Source: an uncultured bacterium
GTDB lineage: Bacteria > Verrucomicrobiota > Kiritimatiellia > PWTM01
Assembly (NCBI GenBank): GCA_937139365.1
Contig: CAKZPT010000043.1
Location: 1-64,000, forward strand
DNA: 64,000 nt
Direction: 5' to 3'
Part shown: positions 4,607 to 25,663 of the stretch, piece by piece
How the letters are laid out: every line of letters begins with the position of its first letter
Position numbering within the stretch: the stretch's first letter is position 1
Position numbers and translations under genes: made by a program
Notes under the pieces: generated by a model
Seen by the model: the letters and a program-made list of their open reading frames with translations, nothing else
Databases searched by the model: none
What the model was told of the DNA's origin: nothing

Positions 4607-5229
4607 GCGGGCCCGGCGCCGGCCGCCCAGGCGCGGACCGCGCGGATCGTCGCGACCGCGGAGGAGTGCACGAGGCTCCGGACGCCGCACCGCTCCGCCG
4701 CCACGCAGTTCTCCGGCTCGTCGTCCACGAACAGGCACTCGTCCGCCTTCAGGCCGAGCCGCCGCAGCCCCTCCAGGAAAAACTCCGGGGCCGGCTTTCG
4801 CGCGCCGAGTTCGAACGACAGCGCGTGCCCCTCGTGCACGGCCATCGCCGGAAAGGCCTCGTAGACCCACGGCACGTGCATGTCGCTGGTGTTGGAGAAG
4901 TACCAGATGCGCAGGGTCGTCGACAGATCCCGCCATGCAGCGACGATCTCCGGATCGGGCCGGAACATGGCGCGCCAGATCGCGACGAACTCGTCGTCCG
5001 ATCCGGTGAAGCCCAAGCGGCGCCGCACGTGGGCGATGAACTCGGCGCGGCCGACGCGGCCGCACTCATACGCCTCGAGCACCGGATCGGTCCGGAAGGC
5101 CAGCCGGAGCGCGGCCGGCCCCAGGCCCGCCGAACACCGCTCCGCCATCCGCGCCGCCGGCCGGTCGAGGTCCAGCCGCAACACGACCCCGCCGATGTCC
5201 GACAGCAGATGGCGCCGCGACCGCCTCAC
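4603..5229 (-). CDS. HAD-superfamily hydrolase (subfamily IA, YihX-like)
   Basis: This is a predicted small-molecule phosphatase. Motif I is 'SDIGGVVLRLD' (nucleophile Asp followed by GG, as in the YihX/haloacid dehalogenase branch), motif II is 'YFSNTSD', motif III Lys is in 'ARKPAPEFF', and motif IV is 'CLFVDDEPEN'. It has 208 residues. The start is placed at GTG 5229, which overlaps the argC stop in a GTGA arrangement and keeps the hydrophobic strand of motif I within the first dozen residues; the much longer upstream open frame is an argC shadow. It is therefore translationally coupled to argC. The substrate cannot be told from sequence; histidinol phosphate, glucose-1-phosphate or flavin phosphates are all possible for this family. 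Confidence 0.8.
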   Translation of the reverse strand: MRRSRRHLLSDIGGVVLRLDLDRPAARMAERCSAGLGPAALRLAFRTDPVLEAYECGRVGRAEFIAHVRRRLGFTGSDDEFVAIWRAMFRPDPEIVAAWRDLSTTLRIWYFSNTSDMHVPWVYEAFPAMAVHEGHALSFELGARKPAPEFFLEGLRRLGLKADECLFVDDEPENCVAAERCGVRSLVHSSAVATIRAVRAWAAGAGPA

Positions 5230-6290
5230 GGATTGGAGCCGAACCGGTACAGGCTCGTCGTCTGCGGCAAACCGAACATGAGGTTCATGTTCTGCACCGC
5301 GTTGCCGGCCTGGCCCTTGACGAGGTTGTCGATGTGGGAAATCACCCGCAGCGTGCGCGTCCGTTCGTCCACGTCCACGATCAGGTTGCAGAAATTCGAG
5401 CCGCGCACGTGCGCGGTGCCGACGGCGGCAGAGCGGTCGAACACCCGGACGAACGGATGGCGGGCGTGGAAGTCGCGGTACGCATCGAGAACGGATTCGG
5501 TCGTCCATCCGTCCTCCAGCTCGCCGTAGAGGCACGACAGGATGCCGCGGCACATCGGCACCGCCTGAGCCGTGAACACGACCCGGTGCGGCCGGCCGCC
5601 GATCCGTTCGAGGGCGTCCTCGATCTCGCAGACGTGCTGGTGGCCGCCGAGCCGGTAGGCGTTCATGTTCTCGTAGCGGGCCGGATAGTGGTGGCCGGAC
5701 TGCGGCTTCTTGCCGGCGCCGGAGATCGCGGTCTTGCAATCGGCGATCAGGCGGCCCGGCCGCACCATCCGCCGCTGGGCCGCCGGGGCGAGCCCCAGCA
5801 GGACGCTGACCGCGAAGCAGCCGGCGTTGCCAACCAGCCGACTGTCGGCCCCCAGCCGCGGGTCCTCCAGTTCCGGCAGCCCGTACACAGCCCCGGGCAG
5901 CAGGTGGGGCGACGCGTGCCGCAGCGGCTTGCCCGCCCGCCGCGAGTACTCCTCGTACCGCTCAATCGTCTGGAATCGGAAATCGCCGCTGAAATCGACG
6001 ATCCGGGCCCCGCGGGCCATCTCCTCCTCCGCGTGCCGCATGCCCACGCCGTCGGGGGTCGCGAAGAACACAACGTCGGCCGGCTCGCGCGCCCGCGGGT
6101 CGTCGTAGGAGAGGATCGTCTGGTCGCAGAACCCCTTGAGGTGCGGCCACAGGTCGCTCATCGCGACGCCGACGTCCGCGGCCGCGGCCAGCGCGACGAT
6201 TTCGACTTCCGGATGTCCCAGCAACAGCTCGACCAATCCGACTCCGCCGTACCCGCCCGCGCCGACCACCTTCGCTCGGATCTTTGCCAT
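5226..6290 (-). CDS. argC: N-acetyl-gamma-glutamyl-phosphate reductase
   Basis: ArgC performs the third step of arginine synthesis, the NADPH-dependent reduction of N-acetylglutamyl phosphate to the semialdehyde. A Rossmann start 'KVVGAGGYGGVGLVELLL' is followed by the active-site Cys in 'VGNAGCFA', 'GAGKKPQSGHHY', and 'GHQHVCEIE', and the protein ends at the usual place with 354 residues. NAGC replaces the more common NPGC, a tolerated change. It is the first gene of a two-gene unit with the HAD hydrolase and is divergent from tpx. A TTGTTT/TAGACT pair on this strand lies about 50 bases upstream. No other arg genes are in the window. Confidence 0.92.
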   Translation of the reverse strand: MAKIRAKVVGAGGYGGVGLVELLLGHPEVEIVALAAAADVGVAMSDLWPHLKGFCDQTILSYDDPRAREPADVVFFATPDGVGMRHAEEEMARGARIVDFSGDFRFQTIERYEEYSRRAGKPLRHASPHLLPGAVYGLPELEDPRLGADSRLVGNAGCFAVSVLLGLAPAAQRRMVRPGRLIADCKTAISGAGKKPQSGHHYPARYENMNAYRLGGHQHVCEIEDALERIGGRPHRVVFTAQAVPMCRGILSCLYGELEDGWTTESVLDAYRDFHARHPFVRVFDRSAAVGTAHVRGSNFCNLIVDVDERTRTLRVISHIDNLVKGQAGNAVQNMNLMFGLPQTTSLYRFGSNP

Positions 6291-14842: not shown

Positions 14843-15988
14843 TCACGACTCGTCCGCGTGGAGGTGCACCACGCGCGCGGGCGGAAAACCGTTGAACCAC
14901 GTGGACGATGCGTGGCTGTACGCCCCGATGTTCTCCGCGTAGACGAGGTCCCCTAGCTCGAGGTCCGGCAGCTCCTCCGCCAACGAAATCGTGTCCAGCG
15001 CGTCGCACGTCGGCCCGAATACCGCCGACAGGGCGGTGGGACCGCGCCGGAAGGCCCGGACGGGATATTTCATGTGGTCGAAGACGATCCCGGAAAAGGT
15101 GTGGTAGACGCCGTCGTTGATGTAGTAGCACGGCCGGCCATCGCGCACGGCCTTGCCGATGACCTCGGCCACAAGGGTGCAGGCCGTCGCGACGAGGTAC
15201 CGCCCCGGCTCGGCCAGCACGCAGATGTCCTTCGGAAAGAGGCGCGGGATCTCGGTGCGCAGCAGCCGGCCCAGTTCGCGGAGAGGGCGGACGTTGGCGT
15301 CGTAGGGGGCGGGAAAGCCGCCGCCGATGTCGAGTTGGATCATCTTTTTGAACCCGCGCATCCGCGCCTCCTTCAGCACGGCGGCCGCCAGGCTCAGGGC
15401 CTGGACGTAGTTCTGGAAATTCGTCGTCTGGCTGCCGACGTGGAAGGACAGGCCCTCGACCGTCAAACCCGCGTCGTGCGCGGCCTGGATTAGGTCCACC
15501 GCCTCGCCCGGCTCGCAGCCGAACTTGGACGACAGCTCCACCATCGCGCCAGTGTTCGGCACGCGCAGGCGGAGCATGAGGCCGGCGTGGGGCGCATGGC
15601 GGGCGATCTTGCCGATTTCCGCGTAGTTATCGTAGACGACGAGAGGCCGGTAGGGGTCCAGGGCCTCCAGGGTGGCCCGGTCCTTGATCGGGTTAGCGTA
15701 GATGATCTTGTCCCAGATGAGGTCCTGCCGTTCCTTCTCCGGCAGTTCGCGCATGTTCTCGTAGACAAGCTGGAATTCGGCCAGGGAGGCCACATCGAAG
15801 CTCGCCCCGGCCCGGTAAAAGGTCCGCACGACCTCGGGCAGGCTGTTGGCTTTGACGGCGTAGTAGGGCTGTACGTTCGGCAGCCAGCGGCGGAAGTTGG
15901 CGAGGTTGCGTCGCAGCTGGCGGTGATCCACGACGAACAACGGCGTCCCGTGCTGGCGGGCGAGACGGCGCAACCGACGTTTATCCAT
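14843..15988 (-). CDS. PLP-dependent ornithine decarboxylase (alanine racemase-fold, group IV)
   Basis: This enzyme decarboxylates ornithine, or a related diamino acid such as lysine, to putrescine for polyamine synthesis. It carries the PLP-binding Lys in 'YYAVKANSLP', 'LSFHVGSQ', the phosphate-binding 'LDIGGGFPAP', 'EPGRYLVA', and the active-site 'FGPTCDALDTI' with the Cys-Asp pair contributed across the dimer. It has 381 residues and a normal end ('GAYSHASSTWFNGFP'). Diaminopimelate decarboxylases share the fold, but the CDALD motif and shorter length favour ornithine decarboxylase. It lies 72 bases after the E3 stop in the same direction. Agmatine deiminase at 45771 would supply a second polyamine branch. 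Confidence 0.88.
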   Translation of the reverse strand: MDKRRLRRLARQHGTPLFVVDHRQLRRNLANFRRWLPNVQPYYAVKANSLPEVVRTFYRAGASFDVASLAEFQLVYENMRELPEKERQDLIWDKIIYANPIKDRATLEALDPYRPLVVYDNYAEIGKIARHAPHAGLMLRLRVPNTGAMVELSSKFGCEPGEAVDLIQAAHDAGLTVEGLSFHVGSQTTNFQNYVQALSLAAAVLKEARMRGFKKMIQLDIGGGFPAPYDANVRPLRELGRLLRTEIPRLFPKDICVLAEPGRYLVATACTLVAEVIGKAVRDGRPCYYINDGVYHTFSGIVFDHMKYPVRAFRRGPTALSAVFGPTCDALDTISLAEELPDLELGDLVYAENIGAYSHASSTWFNGFPPARVVHLHADES

Positions 15989-16060
15989 GCGCTACTCGTA
16001 GTTTCGCAGCGTTCGGAAATCAAGTCGGGACGCCCGCCGCCGCACGCGCGCCTTTGGGGC

Positions 16061-17458
16061 TCAGCCCGCGCTCTTACGGGACGGCGGAACGTGGACAGGG
16101 TGGCCGGCGAGCACATGCGCGGCCTCCATCCAGATCTCGCCGAAGGTCGGATGCGGATGGATCGTCCGGCCGACCTCGTCGGCCGTCAATTCCGCGCGGA
16201 TGGCCAAGGCGGCCTCGGAGATCAGGTCCGTCGCTCGGGCCCCCACTGCGGCCGCTCCCACCAACCGGCCGTCCGGATCCGCGATCCACTTGACGAACCC
16301 CTCGGCGACGCCGCCCGCGACGGCCCGGCCGAGCGCGGCGTACGGGAACCGGGCGACGCGGATGGACCGGCCCTGTTCCCGCGCCGAGGTCTCGGTCACG
16401 CCGACCAAGGCGACTTCGGGGTGCGTGAAAATGACGCCCGGCACGAGGGTCTCGTTGGGCGGCGTGCGATGACCGAGCGCGTCGTCGGCGGCGATCAGAC
16501 CCTGGGAGGTGGCGGCGTGGGCCAACTGCGGTCCGCCATTGACATCACCGATCGCATACACGCCCGGCACGGCCGTCCGGTTACGCCCATCCACGCGGAG
16601 GAATCCCTTCTCGTCGGGCGCCAGCCCGATCCGTTCGGCAGCGAGGCCGCGGGTGACCGGCCGGCGACCGGTGGCCACCAAAAGCAAATCGGCCTCGAAC
16701 GACTCCCCGCCGGCCGCCAGCCGGACACCGGCCTCGCCGGCGTCCACCCGTTCCGCACGGCAGCCGGTCACCACACGAATGTTCAGGTGCCGCTCCATCG
16801 AGCGGCGAACCTCGGTCCGAACGTCGGGATCCAGCAGAAGCAGGATGTCGTCGAGCAGTTCGACCAACGTGACCTCCGAACCGAGCATAGCCGCCAAGCC
16901 GGCCAGCTCACAGCCGATGTAGCCGCCGCCGAGGACCAGCAGCCTCGGCGGAAGCGCGGTCCGCGCCAAAAACCCGCGGCTCTCGACCACGGAGGGCGCC
17001 GACGGAATCAGGGAGGGCATGGCCGACTCCGAACCGGTGGCGACAATCACCTTCCTCGCCGCCAGCCACCTGGAGCCGCCTGGGGCCTGCACCTGGAGCC
17101 GGCCGTGGGACACGAACGACGCCTCGCCCACGATCTGCTCGACGCCGTTGGCCTTCAGGAGGGAGCGGACGCCAGCGCCGAGGCGGTTGACGGTCGCGTC
17201 CTTGTGGCGGCACAGCGCGGCGTAGTCAACCGTCAACCCCTCCGCGCGGATGCCCAAGGCCGCCCCGTGGCGGGCCGCCCAGGCCGTTTCGCCGGCGGCG
17301 ATCATCGCCTTGGTCGGGATACAACCCCAGTTCAGGCATGTCCCGCCCCACGCCTCGCGCTCGATGATGACTGTCCTGGCCCCCCGCTGGGCGGCGCGGA
17401 TGGCCGCGGGGTATCCGCCGGGTCCCGCCCCGATCACCACCACGTCGTACTCGTCCAT
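16061..17458 (-). CDS. lpdA: dihydrolipoyl dehydrogenase (E3 of the pyruvate dehydrogenase complex)
   Basis: E3 reoxidises the dihydrolipoyl arms of E2, passing electrons through a redox disulfide and FAD to NAD+. It shows 'VVVIGAGPGGYPAAIRAAQ' (FAD), the redox pair in 'GGTCLNWGCIPTK', the NAD site 'LLVLGGGYIGCELA', 'YAIGDVNGG' and the C-terminal 'HPHPTFGEIW' with the catalytic His-Glu of the dimer partner. It has 465 residues. The start is ATG 17458, where 'MDEYDVVVIGAG' has the usual spacing; AGGTG precedes it. It begins 19 bases after the E2 stop, completing a compact E1-E2-E3 operon. Confidence 0.95.
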   Translation of the reverse strand: MDEYDVVVIGAGPGGYPAAIRAAQRGARTVIIEREAWGGTCLNWGCIPTKAMIAAGETAWAARHGAALGIRAEGLTVDYAALCRHKDATVNRLGAGVRSLLKANGVEQIVGEASFVSHGRLQVQAPGGSRWLAARKVIVATGSESAMPSLIPSAPSVVESRGFLARTALPPRLLVLGGGYIGCELAGLAAMLGSEVTLVELLDDILLLLDPDVRTEVRRSMERHLNIRVVTGCRAERVDAGEAGVRLAAGGESFEADLLLVATGRRPVTRGLAAERIGLAPDEKGFLRVDGRNRTAVPGVYAIGDVNGGPQLAHAATSQGLIAADDALGHRTPPNETLVPGVIFTHPEVALVGVTETSAREQGRSIRVARFPYAALGRAVAGGVAEGFVKWIADPDGRLVGAAAVGARATDLISEAALAIRAELTADEVGRTIHPHPTFGEIWMEAAHVLAGHPVHVPPSRKSAG

Positions 17459-17477
17459 CGTGCACCTCGTTTTGGAT

Positions 17478-18842
17478 TCAAGCCCACGCCCGCCAGACGG
17501 CGGGGTCCTCCAGCCGTTTGCGGATCGCATTGATGAACCGCGCGGCGGCGGCCCCGTCCACCAAGCGGTGGTCGGCCGACAGCGTCATCTTCATCATCGA
17601 GCGGACCTCCACCGTACCGCCGCGCGCGACGGGGGTCTCCTGCGTGCTGGCGACCGCCAAGATCGCCCCCTCGCCCGGATTGATGATCGCGGTGAAGTTC
17701 TCGACGTCGAGCATTCCCATGTTGGAGATCGTGAACGTGCCGCCCGTCATTTCGTCCGGCGTCAGCTTGCCGGCCCGCGCCTTCTCCACCAGCGCGGCGG
17801 CCGTGTCATGCAGCTCGCGAAGGGAGAGGTCGTCGGCGTTGCGGATCACGGGGACGACGAGGCCGCTGTCCAACGAGACCGCGAGGCCGAGGTGGACCTT
17901 CGAAAATGTCCACACCTGTCGGCCGTCGGTTCGGGCGTTGAAGTCCGGGAACTCGCGCAGCGCCAGCACGACGGCCATCGCGATGAAGTCCGTGACGGTG
18001 TACGGCTCGCCCAGCTCCTTCAGGCGACGCCGATGTTTGAGGAGGTCGGTCAGGTCCGCCGACACGGTGACGAAGAAATGCGGCGTCGTCGTGAAGCTTT
18101 GCGTGAGCCGCTGGGCGATGACCTGGCGCATCCGGCTCATCGGCCGCGGCCGCTCGGCGATCGCCCGGCGGACATCCTCGATGAGGATCCGGCCGGCCTC
18201 TCCGCTGCCGCGCAACCGGAGGATGTCCACGCCTTCGCGGCGGGCCAGATCCTTCGCGGCGGGGCTGATGCGAAGGCGATCATAGCCCTGCGCGGCCAGG
18301 TAGGCCATGACGTCGCGTTCGAGGATCCGCCCCCCGGGGCCGCTGCCGAGGATCGGCGCCGGGTCGATCACCGCCTCGCGGGCACGGCGGCGCGCGCGCG
18401 GGCTGATGCGCAGACGGGCGGGGGCGGCGGTTGTGGCGGGCGCTGAGGCGGCAGGCGCGAGCGCCGGGGCGACGGGCGCGGGGGCCGGCATCGGCGGAGC
18501 GGCAGGCACGACGGGGCCGGCCGGTGCCGGAGCCGCCGGCGGTGGGGGGATTGGCGCGGCGGGCGGCGCCAACGGTGGGGGCGGGGCAGCGGGGATCGCC
18601 TCGCCAGGCTGGCCGATCCATGCGACGGTCGCCTGGACCGGCACGGTTCCGCCCTCGGAAACGACGATCTTGAGCAGCGTTCCCTCGTAGAAGCTTTCGA
18701 CCTCCATGTTCGCCTTGTCGGTCTCGATTTCGAACAGGATGTCGCCCTTCGCGACGGGATCGCCCTCCCGCTTGTGCCATTTGAGGATCGTGCATTCCTC
18801 GGTGAACTGGCCCGGCTTGGGCATCGCTACGGCGTGGGGCAT
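17478..18842 (-). CDS. pdhC: dihydrolipoamide acetyltransferase (E2) with one lipoyl and two subunit-binding domains
   Basis: The N-terminal lipoyl domain has the modified Lys in 'ETDKANMEVES' (about residue 43). A long Ala/Pro linker follows (about residues 95-150). Two peripheral subunit-binding domains come next: 'ISPRARRRAREAVID' with 'GSGPGGRILERDV', and 'ISPAAKDLARREGVD' with 'GSGEAGRILIEDV'. The catalytic domain ends 'SADHRLVDGAAAARF' with the active-site His and Asp. It transfers acetyl groups from E1 to CoA. Two binding domains in tandem are unusual, since most E2 proteins have one. It has 454 residues. The start at ATG 18842 gives 'MPHAVAMPKP' with GGAGG upstream; it follows E1 by 29 bases. 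Confidence 0.93.
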   Translation of the reverse strand: MPHAVAMPKPGQFTEECTILKWHKREGDPVAKGDILFEIETDKANMEVESFYEGTLLKIVVSEGGTVPVQATVAWIGQPGEAIPAAPPPPLAPPAAPIPPPPAAPAPAGPVVPAAPPMPAPAPVAPALAPAASAPATTAAPARLRISPRARRRAREAVIDPAPILGSGPGGRILERDVMAYLAAQGYDRLRISPAAKDLARREGVDILRLRGSGEAGRILIEDVRRAIAERPRPMSRMRQVIAQRLTQSFTTTPHFFVTVSADLTDLLKHRRRLKELGEPYTVTDFIAMAVVLALREFPDFNARTDGRQVWTFSKVHLGLAVSLDSGLVVPVIRNADDLSLRELHDTAAALVEKARAGKLTPDEMTGGTFTISNMGMLDVENFTAIINPGEGAILAVASTQETPVARGGTVEVRSMMKMTLSADHRLVDGAAAARFINAIRKRLEDPAVWRAWA

Positions 18843-18871
18843 GGCGGAGTCCCTCCGGTTTCGACCGCGGT

Positions 18872-21169
18872 TCAAAGGATTCGCCGGGCGGCGGCGACCA
18901 TGTCCTGCGCGTTCGGGAGGAACGCGGCCTCGAGGATGTGCGACTGCGGTGCGATGCCGTCCTTCGCGCCCACCCGGACCACGGGGGCGTCGAGTTCGTC
19001 GAACGCCTTCTCGGCGATCCGCGCGGCGATCTCGGCGGTGAAGCTGCCGATCTGAACGGCCTGGCTGACGACCACGCAGCGACCGGTCTTCGCCACGGAG
19101 CGCAGGATGGTCTCCTCGTCGAGCGGCACCAGGGACCGGATGTCGACGACCTCGGCCTCAATGCCGTCTTTGGCGAGGATCTCGGCCGCTTTCAGCGCGT
19201 CGAGGATGGCGGGGCCCCACCCCACGAACGTCAGGTCGCGGCCGGGCCGTTTGATGTCGGCGACGCCGATGGGCACGAGGTGGTCGCCCTCCGGCACGAC
19301 TCCCTTTTCGCTGTAGAGCAACTGCGACTCGACGTACATGACGGGGTTGTCGTCACGAACGGCGGCTTTGATGAGGCCCTTGGCGTCGGCCGCCGTGGCG
19401 GGGTAGACGACGTAGAGGCCGGGGATGTGGGCGAAGACGCTCTCGAGGGTCTGGGAATGCTGACCGCCGTAGCCCTTGCCGCCGCCGACGGAGGCACGAA
19501 TGACCAGCGGCAGGGTCGTCTGGCCGCCGCTCATATAGTGCCACTTGGCCGCCTGGTTGCTGATCTGATCGGAGGCCATCAGCGCGAAGTCCATGTACAT
19601 CAGCTCGACGATCGGCCGCAGCCCCGCCATCGCCGCGCCGACGGCGGTGCCGCAGATGCAGGCCTCGGAGATCGGCGTATTGAAGACGCGCTCGCGGCCG
19701 AACATCTCGAGCATGCCCTTGGTCAGCTTGAACGCGTTGCCATACTCCGCGACGTCCTCGCCATAGAAGATGACGCGGTGGTCGCGGAGCATTTCCTCGA
19801 CCATGCCCTCCTTGATCGCGTCGCGGTAAGTGATGCGGCCGTCCTTGTCGCGCTTGACCTTCGCGGCCTCGGCGTCCAACACGCGCACGTTTCGGTGCGG
19901 TTCCGGCACGGCGTCGCAACGGGAGGTCGTGTACATGAACTTCAGAACCTCCTCGGGTTTCGGGTCAGGGGCGTCGGCCGCGCGCAGGGCCGCCCGCGTG
20001 TTGCGGTCCCGCACCCGCTGCTCGATCGCCGCCAGGTCCGACTCCGCCGCCGCGCCGGCGGCCAGCAGGGCGGCCCGAAAACGGTCGATGGGGTCCACGG
20101 CGCGCCAGGCCGCCTCTTCCTCCTTGGAGCGGTACTCCACGCGCGGATCACCGAGCGAGTGGCCGTAGTACCGGTAGGTCACCGCGTCCAGCAGGACCGG
20201 TCCGAGCCCCGCGCGACACAGATCGGCGGCCCGGCGCACCGCGTCGAACACCGCCAGCGCGTCCATGCCGTTGACGACCTCGGCGTGCAGGTTGTTGTCG
20301 GCGAACCCCGCGCCGCGCCGCGCGAGGTGGCGAACGCCGAGGATTTCGTCCACCGCCCGGCCGGTCATGGCGTAAAGATTGTTCTGGATCAGGAAGATGA
20401 TCGGCAGGCCGAAGGGTCGGTCCCCCGCCAGGTGGTTGGTCCACTGCGCCTGCGCGGCGAAGTTTAGCGACTCGAGCACAACGCCGTTGGCGTAGGCACC
20501 GTCGCCGGCGAAACAGCAGACGACGTTCGGCGAGCGCTGGTAGCGGAGGGCCATCGCGGCGCCGGTGGCGATCGGTACCCCGCCGCCGACGATCGCGTTG
20601 GCGCCGAGGTGGCCAATCCGGAAGTCGGCGATGTGCATGCCCCCGCCGCGGCCGCGGCAGTAGCCGTCGTCCTTGCCGAACAGCTCGGCGATCGTCCGGA
20701 AGACGTGGTCCTCGAGGGCCTCCTCCAGCAGTGCCGCGCCGCCAGCCGTCGAGCCGGGCACGCGCGAGCGCAGTTCCGCCTCGGACATCCGGCGGATGGC
20801 GGCGCATCCCTTCGCGAGGCTGTCGCCGTGGCCGCGGTGGGTGCTGGTGATCCGGTCGGCGGGATGGAGCGCGGTACAGGCGCCTACCGCGGTGCCCTCC
20901 TGGCCAATGGAGACGTGGGTGGGCCCGCGGTAGTTGTAGCCCGGCAGCGGATCGTACGCGCCCGAGCGCAGCCGGACGATCATGTCCTCCACCTCGCGCA
21001 CGATCAGCATGTCCTCGTACATCTCGAGGGTCTGCTCGCGCGTGAGGCGGCCGGCCGCCAGCTCCACCTCGAGCCGGCCGGCGTATTGGTAGCCGCGAAT
21101 GCGGCCGCAATCGATCTCGAACGGCGTGAAGTCGGGTTGCACAAAGCTCAGATAGTTCGGTTTGCTCAT
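18872..21169 (-). CDS. fused alpha-beta E1 component of pyruvate (2-oxo acid) dehydrogenase
   Basis: A single 765-residue chain carries both E1 subunits. The α part (to about residue 410) has 'STHRGHGDSLAKG', 'GRGGGMHIAD' and the thiamine-diphosphate motif beginning 'AGDGAYANG' and ending 'NNLYAMTG'. The β part has 'ITYRDAIKEGMVEEMLRD', 'FYGEDVAEYGNAFKLTKG', 'NTPISEACICGTAVGAA' and 'GGGKGYGGQHSQTLE'. It decarboxylates a 2-oxo acid and acylates the lipoyl arm of E2. Usually α and β are separate genes; fusions occur in some bacteria. Pyruvate is the likely substrate, though acetoin or branched-chain acids cannot be excluded. GGAGAGGGACG precedes ATG 21169. It lies 52 bases after the DeoR gene stop. 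Confidence 0.93.
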   Translation of the reverse strand: MSKPNYLSFVQPDFTPFEIDCGRIRGYQYAGRLEVELAAGRLTREQTLEMYEDMLIVREVEDMIVRLRSGAYDPLPGYNYRGPTHVSIGQEGTAVGACTALHPADRITSTHRGHGDSLAKGCAAIRRMSEAELRSRVPGSTAGGAALLEEALEDHVFRTIAELFGKDDGYCRGRGGGMHIADFRIGHLGANAIVGGGVPIATGAAMALRYQRSPNVVCCFAGDGAYANGVVLESLNFAAQAQWTNHLAGDRPFGLPIIFLIQNNLYAMTGRAVDEILGVRHLARRGAGFADNNLHAEVVNGMDALAVFDAVRRAADLCRAGLGPVLLDAVTYRYYGHSLGDPRVEYRSKEEEAAWRAVDPIDRFRAALLAAGAAAESDLAAIEQRVRDRNTRAALRAADAPDPKPEEVLKFMYTTSRCDAVPEPHRNVRVLDAEAAKVKRDKDGRITYRDAIKEGMVEEMLRDHRVIFYGEDVAEYGNAFKLTKGMLEMFGRERVFNTPISEACICGTAVGAAMAGLRPIVELMYMDFALMASDQISNQAAKWHYMSGGQTTLPLVIRASVGGGKGYGGQHSQTLESVFAHIPGLYVVYPATAADAKGLIKAAVRDDNPVMYVESQLLYSEKGVVPEGDHLVPIGVADIKRPGRDLTFVGWGPAILDALKAAEILAKDGIEAEVVDIRSLVPLDEETILRSVAKTGRCVVVSQAVQIGSFTAEIAARIAEKAFDELDAPVVRVGAKDGIAPQSHILEAAFLPNAQDMVAAARRIL

Positions 21170-21221
21170 CGTCCCTCTCCGCGGGTCCGCGCCGGCCGTC
21201 CGCCGGCGGTTCCCGTTTGGT

Positions 21222-21998
21222 TCATGCCTCCACCAGCGTGACCCCCGCCGCGAGGAACCGCCGACGCCAGGCCGGCGGCACGCCCCGGTCGGTGATCACC
21301 ACGTCCACATCCTTCAAGCGCCCCGCCCGCGCGAAGGCCACCCGGCCCAGCTTGCTGCGGTCCGCCAGCAGCACGACCTCCGCGGCGCGGCCCAACACCA
21401 GCTCCTTCGTGAAGGCCTCGGCAGGCTCGGTCGTCGTGATCGAGCCGTCCTCGCCGATGCCCATCGTGCCCATGAACGCGACGTCGAATTGGAGCATCTC
21501 CAGCACCGCCCGCGTCAGCGGACCCACCAACGTCTGGCTGAGCCGCCGCAACTCGCCGCCGACCAGAATCGTGCGCGGCCCCTGCCCCGACAGTTCCATC
21601 GCCGCCCGCAACGAGTTGGTCGCCACCACGATGTCCGTACGACTGCGCAGGGCCCGCGCCAGCGCCAACACCGTGCTGCCGCCGTCCAGGTACACCGTCA
21701 TTCCGGACCGGATCCGACGCAGCGCCGCCTCCGCGATCCGGGTTTTCTCCCGCGCCGCCCGCCCGGCCTTGTCCTCGAACAGCGGCTCCTCGAGCCGGCT
21801 CTCGACGCTCACGGCCCCGCCGTGCACCCGCCGCAGCTCGCCCCGCACTTCCAGCGCCCGCAGGTCCCGCCGCAGCGTCGCCGGCGAAATCCCCAGCCGC
21901 CGCCATAGCTCTCCGGCGCGGATCGCGCGCGCCTCCCGGACCGCAGCGCGGATGCGTTCCCATCGTTCCACCGGCAGTTCTGGCGGGGTCGCGGTCAT
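21222..21998 (-). CDS. DeoR-family transcriptional regulator
   Basis: An N-terminal helix-turn-helix ('IRAGELWRRLGISPATLRRD' then 'LRALEVRGELRRVHGGAV') and a DeoR C-terminal sensor domain ('MTVYLDGGSTVLALARAL', 'DIVVATNSLRAA', 'AFMGTMGIGEDGSIT', 'LLADRSKLGRVAFA') are clear. DeoR regulators bind a phosphorylated sugar or nucleoside and usually repress. It has 258 residues. The start is ATG 21998; the longer frame to 22085 would run through the promoter and operator repeats. It is the first gene before the fused E1 and probably governs its own promoter and the pyruvate dehydrogenase operon. That is unusual, since PdhR-type control is normally GntR-family. Confidence 0.9.
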   Translation of the reverse strand: MTATPPELPVERWERIRAAVREARAIRAGELWRRLGISPATLRRDLRALEVRGELRRVHGGAVSVESRLEEPLFEDKAGRAAREKTRIAEAALRRIRSGMTVYLDGGSTVLALARALRSRTDIVVATNSLRAAMELSGQGPRTILVGGELRRLSQTLVGPLTRAVLEMLQFDVAFMGTMGIGEDGSITTTEPAEAFTKELVLGRAAEVVLLADRSKLGRVAFARAGRLKDVDVVITDRGVPPAWRRRFLAAGVTLVEA

Positions 21999-22002
21999 GA
22001 TC

Positions 22003-22041
22003 GATCGTGATCGAGTATAGCACGATCGTGATCGAATGCAA
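22003..22041 (-). promoter_or_regulatory. promoter with two operator repeats for the deoR-pyruvate dehydrogenase unit
   Basis: On the reverse strand -35 TTGCAT (22041-22036) and -10 TATACT (22019-22014) are spaced by 16 bases. The 12-base sequence GATCGTGATCGA occurs twice in direct orientation at 22003-22014 and 22024-22035, centred 21 bases apart (two helical turns): one copy fills the spacer and the other begins at the -10 and extends downstream. A partial inverted copy (ATCACGA) follows at 22041-22047. This is a textbook arrangement for steric repression by a dimeric regulator, presumably the DeoR protein encoded immediately downstream. Confidence 0.7.
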
Positions 22042-22091
22042 TCACGACGAATCAGACCGTGCGGCGCGGCCGAGCCCGTGCGCACCGCCGG

Positions 22092-24401
22092 TTACGGACG
22101 GCGGGCCCAATCGCTAGTGGGGTAGCGGCTGCGCAGCTCCCCGCGCAGACGGCCGGCCTCCTCCCGCTGGCCGGCGCGCTCGAGGAGCTCCGCGGCGCGG
22201 AACAGCGCCTCGGGGGACAGCTCGGGGTGGTCGTAGAGGACGGCGACGCTCAGGAAGTACCGGGCCGCGGAGTCGGCGTCGTCGCGCGCCGCCGCGACGC
22301 GCGCCAGCTCAAACAACGCGCAGGCGCGCTGCTCGGCCAGTTCGTCAGCCGACGCCAGTTCGGCGGCCCGGCGGAGGTGCCCCTCCGCGGCCTCGAGCGC
22401 GCGATCCTCCAGATGCAGACGCCCAAGCTCCAGCAGGGACTCGAGGCGGGCACGGGTGACCACCTTTCCATCGGCGGCCGTTTCGAACGCGGCGATCGCG
22501 CCGGCGCGGTCGCCCAGGCCCAGGCGGGCAAGGCCCAGCAGATGGGCGGCGATCTGTTTCCACCCCTCGTCCGGGGCCGCCCCGGCCAGCGCCTCGGCGG
22601 CGGCGGCGGCCTTGTCCCAGGCCCGCTCCTTCAGCCGAAGGCGGGCCAGCCATTCGAGGAGCCCGGCGGACATGTCGGCCCGCGATGGGGTGGCCAGCAA
22701 GTCCTGCACCAGGTCGGCAGCCTCGGCGGCGCGGCCGAGCTTGCGCAGCGCCCCGGCCATTTGAAACCGGATCCGCCGACGAAGCTCGGGCGGAGGATCA
22801 AGGGCCAGCGCGCGGCGGAATTCTTCCTCCGCCGCGGCCGCCTCCCCGACCTCCAGCGCCAGGGAGCCCAGCCAGAACCGCGCCTCCGCGGCGTGCGAGG
22901 TCGAGGGAAACCGTCGCAGAAGGGCTTGGAACGACTCCATCGCCGCGGCCGTCCGCTGCAGGCGCACCTCGGCCAACCCCTTTTGGAACAGCGCCTCCTC
23001 GGCGGCGGAGGAGGCCGCATAATCGCGCTCGACGCGAGCCCAGTCGGCGACCGCCTCCTCCCATCGCTGGTCGGCGGCGTGAGCCAGCCCGGCCTCGAGC
23101 AGCGCGGCCGGGGCGGCCGGATGGGCGGGATGGCGGTCGGCCACGGACCGGAGCAGTTCGGCGGCCTCGGCGCGAGCGCCGCGGGCGGCGAGGATCGCGC
23201 CCAGCCGGAACATGGCGTCCGGCGCGCGCGCGGCCGGCGGCTGCGCATCCACGATGCGGCGGTAGTGCTGAACGGCGAAATTCGTCGCGCCGGACTGCGC
23301 GTAGCTTTCCGCCAACACCCAGTCCGCCTCAAGCTGGAGCGGCCCCTCCCAGTTGCGCGCCGTCAGGCGCCGGATGGCCTCCTCGTGTTTGCGTTGCCGG
23401 TGAAGGACGGCCGCGGCCTCGAACGCCGCGGCGGCGGCCAGCCGGCTGCTGGGAAATCTGCGGACGAGTGTGTCGTAGGTCTCGACCGCCCCCTCGGCGT
23501 CCAGAAGTTTGCGGCGGCAGTTGGCCAGCAGGTAGAGCCACTCGTCGCTGTCGCCCTTTTCCCGGACGGCGGCCTCGGCGATCTTCGACGCCTCCGCGGC
23601 GCGTCCGACCTGGTACAGCGACCAGGCGGCCTGGAGGCGGGCCTCGGCGGCCCGCGGATCGGTCGGGTGTTCGCGCAGCAGCCGGCCGTAGGCCTCCGCG
23701 GCGGTCGCGTGGTCGGACAGGGAATAGGCCAGGTCACCCATGCGCAGCCACGCCTCCGCGGAGAGGGTGGTCGTGGTGACGCGCGAGGCGGCGGTCCGGT
23801 AGAGCTCGTAGAGCTCGGCCGCCGGCGCGCCCGCCTTGCGCCGCAGGGCCGCCAGTTCCATCGCGGCCAAAGCCGGATAGGGTGAGGTGATGCTCAGGCC
23901 CACCACCTCGCGTAGGATGGCCTCGGCGTGCGCGGTGCCCCCCGTCATCGCGACGGCGACACCAAGAAAATACCGGGCGCCGGCGGCGATTTCGGGGGGG
24001 GGCGGGGCCGCCAGGAGCGCGTTGAGAAGGCCGATCGCGTCGGCGGCCTGGTTGGCGGCGAGGAACAACTCCGCCCGTCGCAGCTCCGCGCGCCGCCGGA
24101 AAGGGCTGGCCGGGAACTCCTGGATCACCCTCCGGTAGAACAGATCGGCGGCGGCGGGATTGCCTGTCTCGCGGTACGATTCGGCCAGCCGGTAGAGCAC
24201 CTGGTCCAGCCTGGCGTAGTCGGGATGCGCCCGCAGAAGCGCCATGTATTCCCGGATCGCCAGGTCGTGGAGGCCGCGGGCGTAGAGGCCATCGGCGAAC
24301 TGCTGTTGCTCCTCGGCGAGGTCCGCGCCGAGGGCAGCCGCCGCCGACAGCAGCGCCGCCGCGAGCGCGCGGCCCGGACGTCGACTGGAGCGGCGCGTCA
24401 C
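22092..24401 (-). CDS. large secreted TPR protein of the ExbBD operon
   Basis: A 769-residue protein starting at GTG 24401 (GTGA overlap with exbD) has a signal sequence ('RALAAALLSAAAALGADLAE') followed by about 15-17 TPR-like units, for example 'AIREYMALLRAHPDYARL', 'LYRLAESYRETGNPAAAD', 'EAALFQ'-type helices and 'LFRAAELLERAGQREEAG' at the end. No catalytic motif is present. Ala-rich helices dominate. Tetratricopeptide proteins encoded after ExbB/ExbD occur widely in PVC and Bacteroidetes genomes and are thought to work with the energised inner-membrane motor in the periplasm, in place of or alongside TonB/TolA. The exact role is unknown. Confidence 0.8.
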   Translation of the reverse strand: MTRRSSRRPGRALAAALLSAAAALGADLAEEQQQFADGLYARGLHDLAIREYMALLRAHPDYARLDQVLYRLAESYRETGNPAAADLFYRRVIQEFPASPFRRRAELRRAELFLAANQAADAIGLLNALLAAPPPPEIAAGARYFLGVAVAMTGGTAHAEAILREVVGLSITSPYPALAAMELAALRRKAGAPAAELYELYRTAASRVTTTTLSAEAWLRMGDLAYSLSDHATAAEAYGRLLREHPTDPRAAEARLQAAWSLYQVGRAAEASKIAEAAVREKGDSDEWLYLLANCRRKLLDAEGAVETYDTLVRRFPSSRLAAAAAFEAAAVLHRQRKHEEAIRRLTARNWEGPLQLEADWVLAESYAQSGATNFAVQHYRRIVDAQPPAARAPDAMFRLGAILAARGARAEAAELLRSVADRHPAHPAAPAALLEAGLAHAADQRWEEAVADWARVERDYAASSAAEEALFQKGLAEVRLQRTAAAMESFQALLRRFPSTSHAAEARFWLGSLALEVGEAAAAEEEFRRALALDPPPELRRRIRFQMAGALRKLGRAAEAADLVQDLLATPSRADMSAGLLEWLARLRLKERAWDKAAAAAEALAGAAPDEGWKQIAAHLLGLARLGLGDRAGAIAAFETAADGKVVTRARLESLLELGRLHLEDRALEAAEGHLRRAAELASADELAEQRACALFELARVAAARDDADSAARYFLSVAVLYDHPELSPEALFRAAELLERAGQREEAGRLRGELRSRYPTSDWARRP

Positions 24402-24814
24402 TTCTCCGGCGGCATCGTGGCGAACGAGATGTTCCAGACGTCCGCCTGCCGGCAGAGGTCGAGGATGCGGATCACCTTCTCGTAGGGCGTGGCCTTGTCG
24501 GCCCGCAACACCACCGGCTGGCCCGGGAACATCGCGACCAGCCGGCGCAGCATCGCCAAGAGGTCCTCCTCGCTGCGTGGAACCCCGTTGACGATCACCG
24601 TCCCATCCGCCGTCACGTTCAGTGTGATCTCGCCGGGCAGGCGCCGGGGCGTCTGTCCGGTCTTCGCCGTGGGCAGGGTCAGCGGCACGTCGGTCTCCCA
24701 CTGGGCAAAGAGCTGGCTGGTCATGAAAAAGCAAAGGAGGAGGAAGATGACGTCGATCATCGGCGCCAACTGGAAACCGACGGGCTCGGGACGGAGGCGG
24801 GCGCGGAAGTTCAT
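24398..24814 (-). CDS. exbD: ExbD/TolR-family biopolymer transport protein
   Basis: A single N-terminal membrane helix carries the essential proton-path Asp in 'LAPMIDVIFLLLCFFM', followed by a periplasmic domain ('EITLNVTADGTVIVNG', 'PVVLRADKATPYEKVIRILD') with the usual TolR/ExbD fold. It has 138 residues. It couples proton flow to mechanical work with ExbB. It starts at ATG 24814, overlapping the exbB stop (ATGA), and ends overlapping the TPR gene start (GTGA), so all three are tightly coupled. No TonB or TolA homologue is present nearby. Confidence 0.93.
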   Translation of the reverse strand: MNFRARLRPEPVGFQLAPMIDVIFLLLCFFMTSQLFAQWETDVPLTLPTAKTGQTPRRLPGEITLNVTADGTVIVNGVPRSEEDLLAMLRRLVAMFPGQPVVLRADKATPYEKVIRILDLCRQADVWNISFATMPPEK

Positions 24815-25551
24815 CGGACGCTCCGGGAGGCCGTCAGCAGGGCCAGCAAGTCGGCCGAGGCGGTCTCGAGCTGCGCGGTGAGCTTGGCGACGCGGCCACG
24901 GAAGAAGGCGTAGAAACCCATCGCGGGAATGCCGACGATCAGGCCGGCCGCCGTGGTGATGAGCGCCTGCGCAACGCCGGCGGCCAGGGTCATCGGCCGG
25001 GCCCGGGCCAGATCGAGCGCGACCGCGTTGAAGGCCTGCAGCATGCCCATCACCGTGCCGAGCAACCCCACCATCGGCGCGATGACCGCGATATCCATCA
25101 GGTACTGAGTCGAGTTCTGCAGCAGGGCCGCTTGGCGGCTGCCCTCGCCCTCCATCACCTCCTTCAACAGCACGGGGTCGCCGCGCTCGTTGCGCTGGAG
25201 CCAGTTGAGCGCCGTTTCGGCCACCGCCGCCAGGGCGGATCGGTTGCGGCGGCAGGCTAGCCGCGCCTCCTCGCGGCGCCCGCTGCCGAGCATTTCACGC
25301 AGGTCGTGCAGAAGGTCGGCGGGGGCGACCGCGCCGACCCGCAGCGTGGCCACCAGGTACAGGACGAACGCCAGCGCGGCGATCGAGAGCGCGCCGAGCA
25401 CGTACATCAACGGCCCCCCTGCCTTGAGGATTTCCTGCAGGGTCATCATTTTGGGGGCAGCCGCTGCGGGAGCCTCGGCCAGCGCCTCCGGCGCCCATGC
25501 CACGACTGCCGCGAGCGCCGCGCCACCCCACCAGGGCCTCGGAACCTTCAT
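24811..25551 (-). CDS. exbB: ExbB/TolQ-family proton channel protein
   Basis: An N-terminal signal-like segment ('AALAAVVAWAPEALAEA') precedes three membrane helices: 'LMYVLGALSIAALAFVLYL', 'DIAVIAPMVGLLGTVMGML' and 'AQALITTAAGLIVGIPAMG'. The last two contain the conserved Thr/Gly pattern of MotA/TolQ/ExbB channels. It has 246 residues. The cleavable leader before the first helix is a form seen in Verrucomicrobia-like ExbB. The start at ATG 25551 follows GGGGAGATC. It is first in the exbB-exbD-TPR operon and lies about 110 bases downstream of the tRNA-Thr gene on the same strand. Confidence 0.92.
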   Translation of the reverse strand: MKVPRPWWGGAALAAVVAWAPEALAEAPAAAAPKMMTLQEILKAGGPLMYVLGALSIAALAFVLYLVATLRVGAVAPADLLHDLREMLGSGRREEARLACRRNRSALAAVAETALNWLQRNERGDPVLLKEVMEGEGSRQAALLQNSTQYLMDIAVIAPMVGLLGTVMGMLQAFNAVALDLARARPMTLAAGVAQALITTAAGLIVGIPAMGFYAFFRGRVAKLTAQLETASADLLALLTASRSVR

Positions 25552-25663
25552 CGTTGATCTCCCCGGCCGGCGTCGCCGGCCGTCCTGTTGCGGGTCCATC
25601 CTAGACCGTGTGAGCAGGAATTCAACCGCGGCGATGGGAGAAACGAACACGGCGGGCATGACC

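Follow-up and report, generated by a model that had tools for sequence, protein, structure and literature searches.

Gene organisation of the deoR locus

On the minus strand of the window, the whole 64,000-nucleotide stretch of DNA that was analysed, a gene for a DeoR-family regulator is followed by the three genes of a 2-oxoacid dehydrogenase complex. The preliminary description of this DNA had placed a repeat upstream of deoR and then E1-E2-E3, and both gene order and protein families agree with that arrangement, with E1 being a fused protein. The genes are as follows:

21222..21998, minus strand: deoR, DeoR-family regulator of 258 aa with HTH_DeoR and DeoRC domains (Pfam PF08220, PF00455)
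18872..21169, minus strand: E1 of a 2-oxoacid dehydrogenase (substrate most likely pyruvate), alpha and beta parts fused, 765 aa (Pfam, NCBIfam, PDB ranking)
17478..18839, minus strand: E2 dihydrolipoyl acyltransferase (Pfam Biotin_lipoyl, E3_binding, 2-oxoacid_dh)
16061..17458, minus strand: E3 dihydrolipoyl dehydrogenase (NCBIfam TIGR01350, 475 bits against a cut-off of 408.8)

The fused E1 contains E1_dh, Transket_pyr and Transketolase_C domains, and, as expected of a pyruvate dehydrogenase (PDH), an E2 with lipoyl and E3-binding domains lies in one cluster with E3; the E2 start was placed at ATG 18839, a longer TTG start at 18875 being possible. E1 beta scores above the cut-off of the curated PDH model PRK09212 (381.8 against 321), while E1 alpha and E2 fall below the PDH equivalog cut-offs (TIGR03182, 260.6 against 393.85; TIGR01349, 343.5 against 445), with PDH models still ranked first for both. 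When ranked against PDB entries, PDH came ahead of branched-chain E1 and behind a Thermus entry named only as 2-oxo acid dehydrogenase. Taken from these sequence comparisons, the substrate is likely to be pyruvate. Contig 52 of the genome carries a second E1-like gene, and contig 4 a pyruvate:ferredoxin oxidoreductase gene (5202-5885) that is divergent from a GAPDH-like gene; PDH is therefore likely not the genome's sole route from pyruvate to acetyl-CoA. As judged from sequence, an ornithine/lysine-type decarboxylase gene (14843-15988) follows E3 in the same direction, near the PDH genes, and just upstream of deoR, in the same orientation, are genes for ExbB/ExbD-like transport and a TPR protein (24398-25659).

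At 258 aa, the regulator falls within the DeoR-family length range of about 240-260 aa (PMC9439231), and its N-terminal HTH_DeoR (PF08220, 46.5 bits) and C-terminal DeoRC (PF00455, about 160 aa, 160.3 bits) domains exceed their cut-offs of 21 and 31.8, respectively. No other DeoRC protein was found in this 97 percent complete genome, and the regulator belongs to the DeoR family, not to the GntR family of the PdhR type. The best curated DeoR family score was that of haloarchaeal GlpR (NF041397, 204.6 bits), a regulator from another domain of life with other targets, and lies below the cut-off of 300. In a structure model with a mean pLDDT of 86.8, the sensor finds its first match in E. coli DeoR (7L6L; TM 0.91 on the target), followed by ribose-5-phosphate isomerases (RpiA structures), and 37 relatives conserve the positions GG-S-T, TNS, GG..R, E..TK and D..K. 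The modelled DeoRC domain is thus predicted to have the expected isomerase-like, sugar-phosphate-binding fold, which fits, as far as the fold goes, the earlier remark that DeoR regulators usually sense sugar phosphates. The sensor match and the conserved positions point to a phosphorylated sugar as ligand without naming it, and we favour a sugar phosphate as effector with moderate confidence.

Tandem decamers across the putative deoR promoter

A 93-base gap on the minus strand lies between the stop of a TPR-type gene (22092) and the deoR start codon (21998). The elements placed in this region are:

22036..22041, minus strand: putative -35, TTGCAT (from sequence, with TTGC or TTGA at the matching position of family members)
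22014..22022, minus strand: putative extended -10, TGCTATACT (from sequence and family members)
22024..22035 (gene strand 22035-22024), minus strand: repeat copy A, TCGATCACGATC, in the promoter spacer and covering array unit 2
22003..22014 (gene strand 22014-22003), minus strand: repeat copy B, TCGATCACGATC, starting at the last -10 base and covering array unit 4
21993..22043, minus strand: predicted operator for DeoR, five units in tandem (from register fit, self-similarity lags and conservation in relatives)

The -10 hexamer TATACT (22019-22014), preceded by an extended TGC, is separated from TTGCAT by a 16-base spacer, and TATACT, TATATT or TAGAAT occupies the matching place in six of seven family members. 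These hexamers fall below the sigma-70 threshold of the promoter scan; position and conservation point to them as the probable deoR promoter. The deoR ATG at 21998 lies about 15 bases past the -10, and the 5' leader in the window (21998-22014) would be very short or absent. In several Chloroflexota relatives, a -10-like AAGAAT ends about 6 bases before the ATG, which suggests that the deoR mRNA may be leaderless there.

Both copies of the previously noted 12-mer were found around this promoter, GATCGTGATCGA occurring on the plus strand at 22003-22014 and 22024-22035 with a period of 21; read on the gene strand, one copy lies in the spacer (22035-22024) and the other runs from the -10 onward (22014-22003), as had been described. 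Identity between the two reaches 13 bases (CGATCGTGATCGA). Exact 12-mer repeats within 60 bases of each other occur at about eight places in the 64 kb window, and such a repeat alone is weak evidence for an element; because it is conserved in relatives, this one stands above chance. What did not hold was the period of 21 as the basic unit: the basic period is 10, and the 12-mer gives only a partial view of an array of about five tandem decamers that spans the region from the -35 to the start codon.

Read in the direction of the genes, its units are GATTGCATTC, GATCACGATC, GTGCTATACTC, GATCACGATC and GATCATGACC. A free EM motif search returned a low-information two-part motif, and register fitting worked better; the fit comprised four units in the window's group and three in other groups, the fifth unit of the window, GATCATGACC, being read by eye outside it. 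Self-similarity in the window appears at lags 10, 21 and 31, and not 10, 20 and 30, because unit 3 has one extra base. For the window promoter alone, the lag-10 signal reaches p = 0.07, and the window's is one of 24 of 60 single promoters in which lag 10 alone misses p 0.05. Direct repeats of 10-11 bases, as found here, mark the operators of several, not all, DeoR-family members.

Conservation of the array and predicted operator classes

Within the family, all seven genomes that have this deoR carry the same E1 beside it and TGATTGA/TCAATCA-type words at the deoR promoter; the regulator had no match in two of the nine family genomes searched, both less than 90% complete. More widely, the window's group comprised 32 deoR promoters, the window included. 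When no motif was supplied, TCAATCA/TGATTGA emerged as the top enriched heptamer, in 19 of the 32 promoters against 1.3 in shuffles. The tandem TCRMTCA-N3-TCRMTCA (period 10, up to two mismatches) occurs in 26 of 32 against 0.75 expected; TCRMTCA was chosen after viewing these promoters, and the fair comparison is between spacings and not with shuffles alone: pairs at periods 9, 11 and 12 occur in 0, 3 and 0 of the 32 promoters, and an inverted pair in one. A lack of conserved repeats before orthologous operons had been named at the outset as grounds for refuting the operator, and with tandem pairs in 26 of 32 promoters the idea survived this comparison. Self-similarity across the group gives z = 12.9, 6.5 and 3.4 at lags 10, 20 and 30, respectively. 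The lag-10 signal is absent from sequence farther upstream of the promoters, and it is also missing ahead of E1 in the 16 loci where no deoR is adjacent.

We considered whether the array could consist of sites for another regulator, such as one of the FNR/CRP type or Rex, that would tune PDH to oxygen or redox state. An FNR-like TTGAT-N4-ATCAA (up to 2 mismatches) is indeed carried by 14 of the 32 promoters, where 4.6 would be expected, but such an excess can arise from GATYGA units spaced 10 apart. Inverted unit pairs occur at chance level and CRP and Rex palindromes close to it, and no palindrome comes near the frequency of direct 10-base tandems; furthermore, the period persists where the units are TTGCAAAA and vanishes before E1 without deoR. 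We regard this explanation as very improbable. Even less credible is an origin of the repeats as a side effect of GATC (Dam-type) sites or of the Ile-Val-Ile-Glu codons common in this genome, as might be supposed from the five GATC words in the window array and from two further exact genomic copies of the 13-base half, both in coding sequence. Most of the array falls outside coding sequence, and the relatives show no enrichment of GATC (present in 20 of 32, with 15.8 expected) and use GATT, AATC and GCTC in the same register. Across the 32 promoters, neither the FNR, CRP and Rex palindromes nor GATC enrichment explained the array.

The reading of the array as the operator of the DeoR encoded directly downstream is well supported by these sequence comparisons, and is the best of those considered because the conserved promoter repeats track the presence of deoR and PDH-like E1-E2-E3 genes follow. 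The earlier proposal of a DeoR operator over the promoter of a PDH operon therefore stands in its conserved elements, with the 12-mer itself having captured only part of them. That DeoR binds the predicted array is, in our judgement, highly probable.

The period is shared by groups whose units differ. In Lentisphaeria/Victivallales the units are TTGCAAAA (lag 10, z = 9.3), and in Chloroflexota TTGCAAGA-like (lag 10, z = 6.4). The recognition helix reads S-E-ATVRRDL in the former and S-Q-ATVRRDL in the latter, whereas in the window's group it is mostly S-P/A/T/S-AT, with E in 2 of 32; the window DeoR has P39. In a DeoR tree each operator group falls on one branch, two of them strongly supported and that of the window's group weakly (79/76). 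This is consistent with regulator and operator having changed together, and not proof of it, because the differences in helix and operator follow three clades and not independent events. The three operator classes, with their matching helix changes, offer a natural series for how DeoR proteins read DNA.

Counting against the operator reading, the Lacunisphaera MAG locus L049 retains a similar array with TCAATCACATCAAACCAATCATAAATC ahead of E1 (upstream of 5001) without an adjacent or close deoR; two DeoR proteins are encoded in this genome, with an identity of only 35%, and AATCACATTAATCG lies upstream of one of them (L150).

Predicted control of pyruvate dehydrogenase

A scan of named genomes yielded 80 E1 loci, a sample biased to E1 genes resembling that of the window. 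In 59 of the 80, E1 is preceded by a DeoR gene of the same orientation. Five loci end too soon upstream, leaving 75, and L058 was left out of the adjacency count as its DeoR is distant (1252 bases) and low scoring; in 58 of these 75 loci, deoR stands directly before E1 in the same orientation, mostly at a distance of less than 150 bases. Records labelled Verrucomicrobia, Kiritimatiellae, Lentisphaerae, Hydrogenedentes and Chloroflexi share this gene order. In three Lentisphaerae/Kiritimatiellota loci (L056, L064, L107), a GroEL-like gene replaces deoR upstream of the fused E1.

These data bear on whether the array might serve as a DeoR operator for deoR only, with the PDH genes constitutively expressed from a promoter of their own. 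Gaps of 100-500 bases between deoR and E1 in a minority of relatives would give space for a second promoter, but most gaps are short, that of the window being 52 bases, and a sigma-70 scan found no promoter-like site in 15800-22300, though it misses the deoR promoter too. The order kept across records with these five labels would also be hard to explain without co-regulation. We consider control of deoR only to be improbable, and infer that deoR is co-transcribed with the PDH genes and that DeoR represses them; control of the PDH genes by the DeoR operator is probable.

We propose that several DeoR subunits would occupy neighbouring 10-base units, which follow one another on nearly the same helix face all the way from the -35, past the start point, up to the start codon, and that bound DeoR would block RNA polymerase, repressing deoR itself and E1-E2-E3 transcribed with it. 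DeoR sites that overlap promoters have been read as repression elsewhere (PMC8579813). The C-terminal domain would bind a metabolite, for which a phosphorylated sugar or an intermediate of glycolysis is the likeliest candidate, and this would free the repressor when carbohydrate is present, so that PDH would rise with sugar supply. As a whole, we hold it likely that the array is a DeoR operator repressing deoR and E1-E2-E3 and released by a metabolite.

In well-studied bacteria, PDH transcription is under the control of pyruvate via PdhR or of other regulators. E. coli PdhR, of the GntR family, is the local repressor of the pdh operon and has a palindromic operator and pyruvate as effector; the regulator gene is likewise first in the PDH operon, with repression of itself and the operon, as we infer here, but protein family, operator and effector differ. 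B. subtilis IolR, a DeoR-family repressor, acts at a promoter on direct repeats, tandem 11-mers, as is predicted for the repressor here; it differs in controlling inositol use and sensing an inositol-derived phosphate. The operators of RhaR, also of the DeoR family, are imperfect direct repeats of 10-11 bases in four taxonomic groups, in which the unit varies by taxon and the period is constant (PMC3870299). RhaR differs in that it controls rhamnose use and has two repeats described, whereas about four to five units and PDH neighbours are found here. No report of a DeoR-family PDH regulator was found in the literature searched, which covered few subscription papers. The locus thus joins a known operator type and a known enzyme in a combination without a found report, conserved across phyla.

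There is, in our estimate, an even chance that an undescribed DeoR subfamily is the main, self-regulated PDH switch in much of Verrucomicrobiota/Kiritimatiellota/Lentisphaerota and part of Chloroflexota, binding four to six decamers cooperatively with a sharp response to sugar phosphate. If so, it would stand in place of the proteobacterial pyruvate-sensing PdhR. A family of sugar-phosphate-type sensors appears to hold PDH control across several phyla with few genetic tools, and the array, as a concrete candidate operator, predicts a coupling of acetyl-CoA formation to carbohydrate supply.

Across the genome, GATYRCRWTCGATYRY without mismatch occurs at three places among the matches listed, two at the window array and the third a single site under long open frames. 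Matches to the two-unit pattern are scattered, with no visible array at the eight sites inspected. DeoR thus looks like a local regulator, though a degenerate distant site could escape such a search. An exact 13-base half-site in the pyruvate:ferredoxin oxidoreductase gene (L121) was considered as a target and set aside: its bases form the codons for Val-Ile-Val-Ile-Glu, a few dozen codons into the gene, and it is probably due to chance. Some of the inspected sites sit near open-frame starts (L143, L145, L149).
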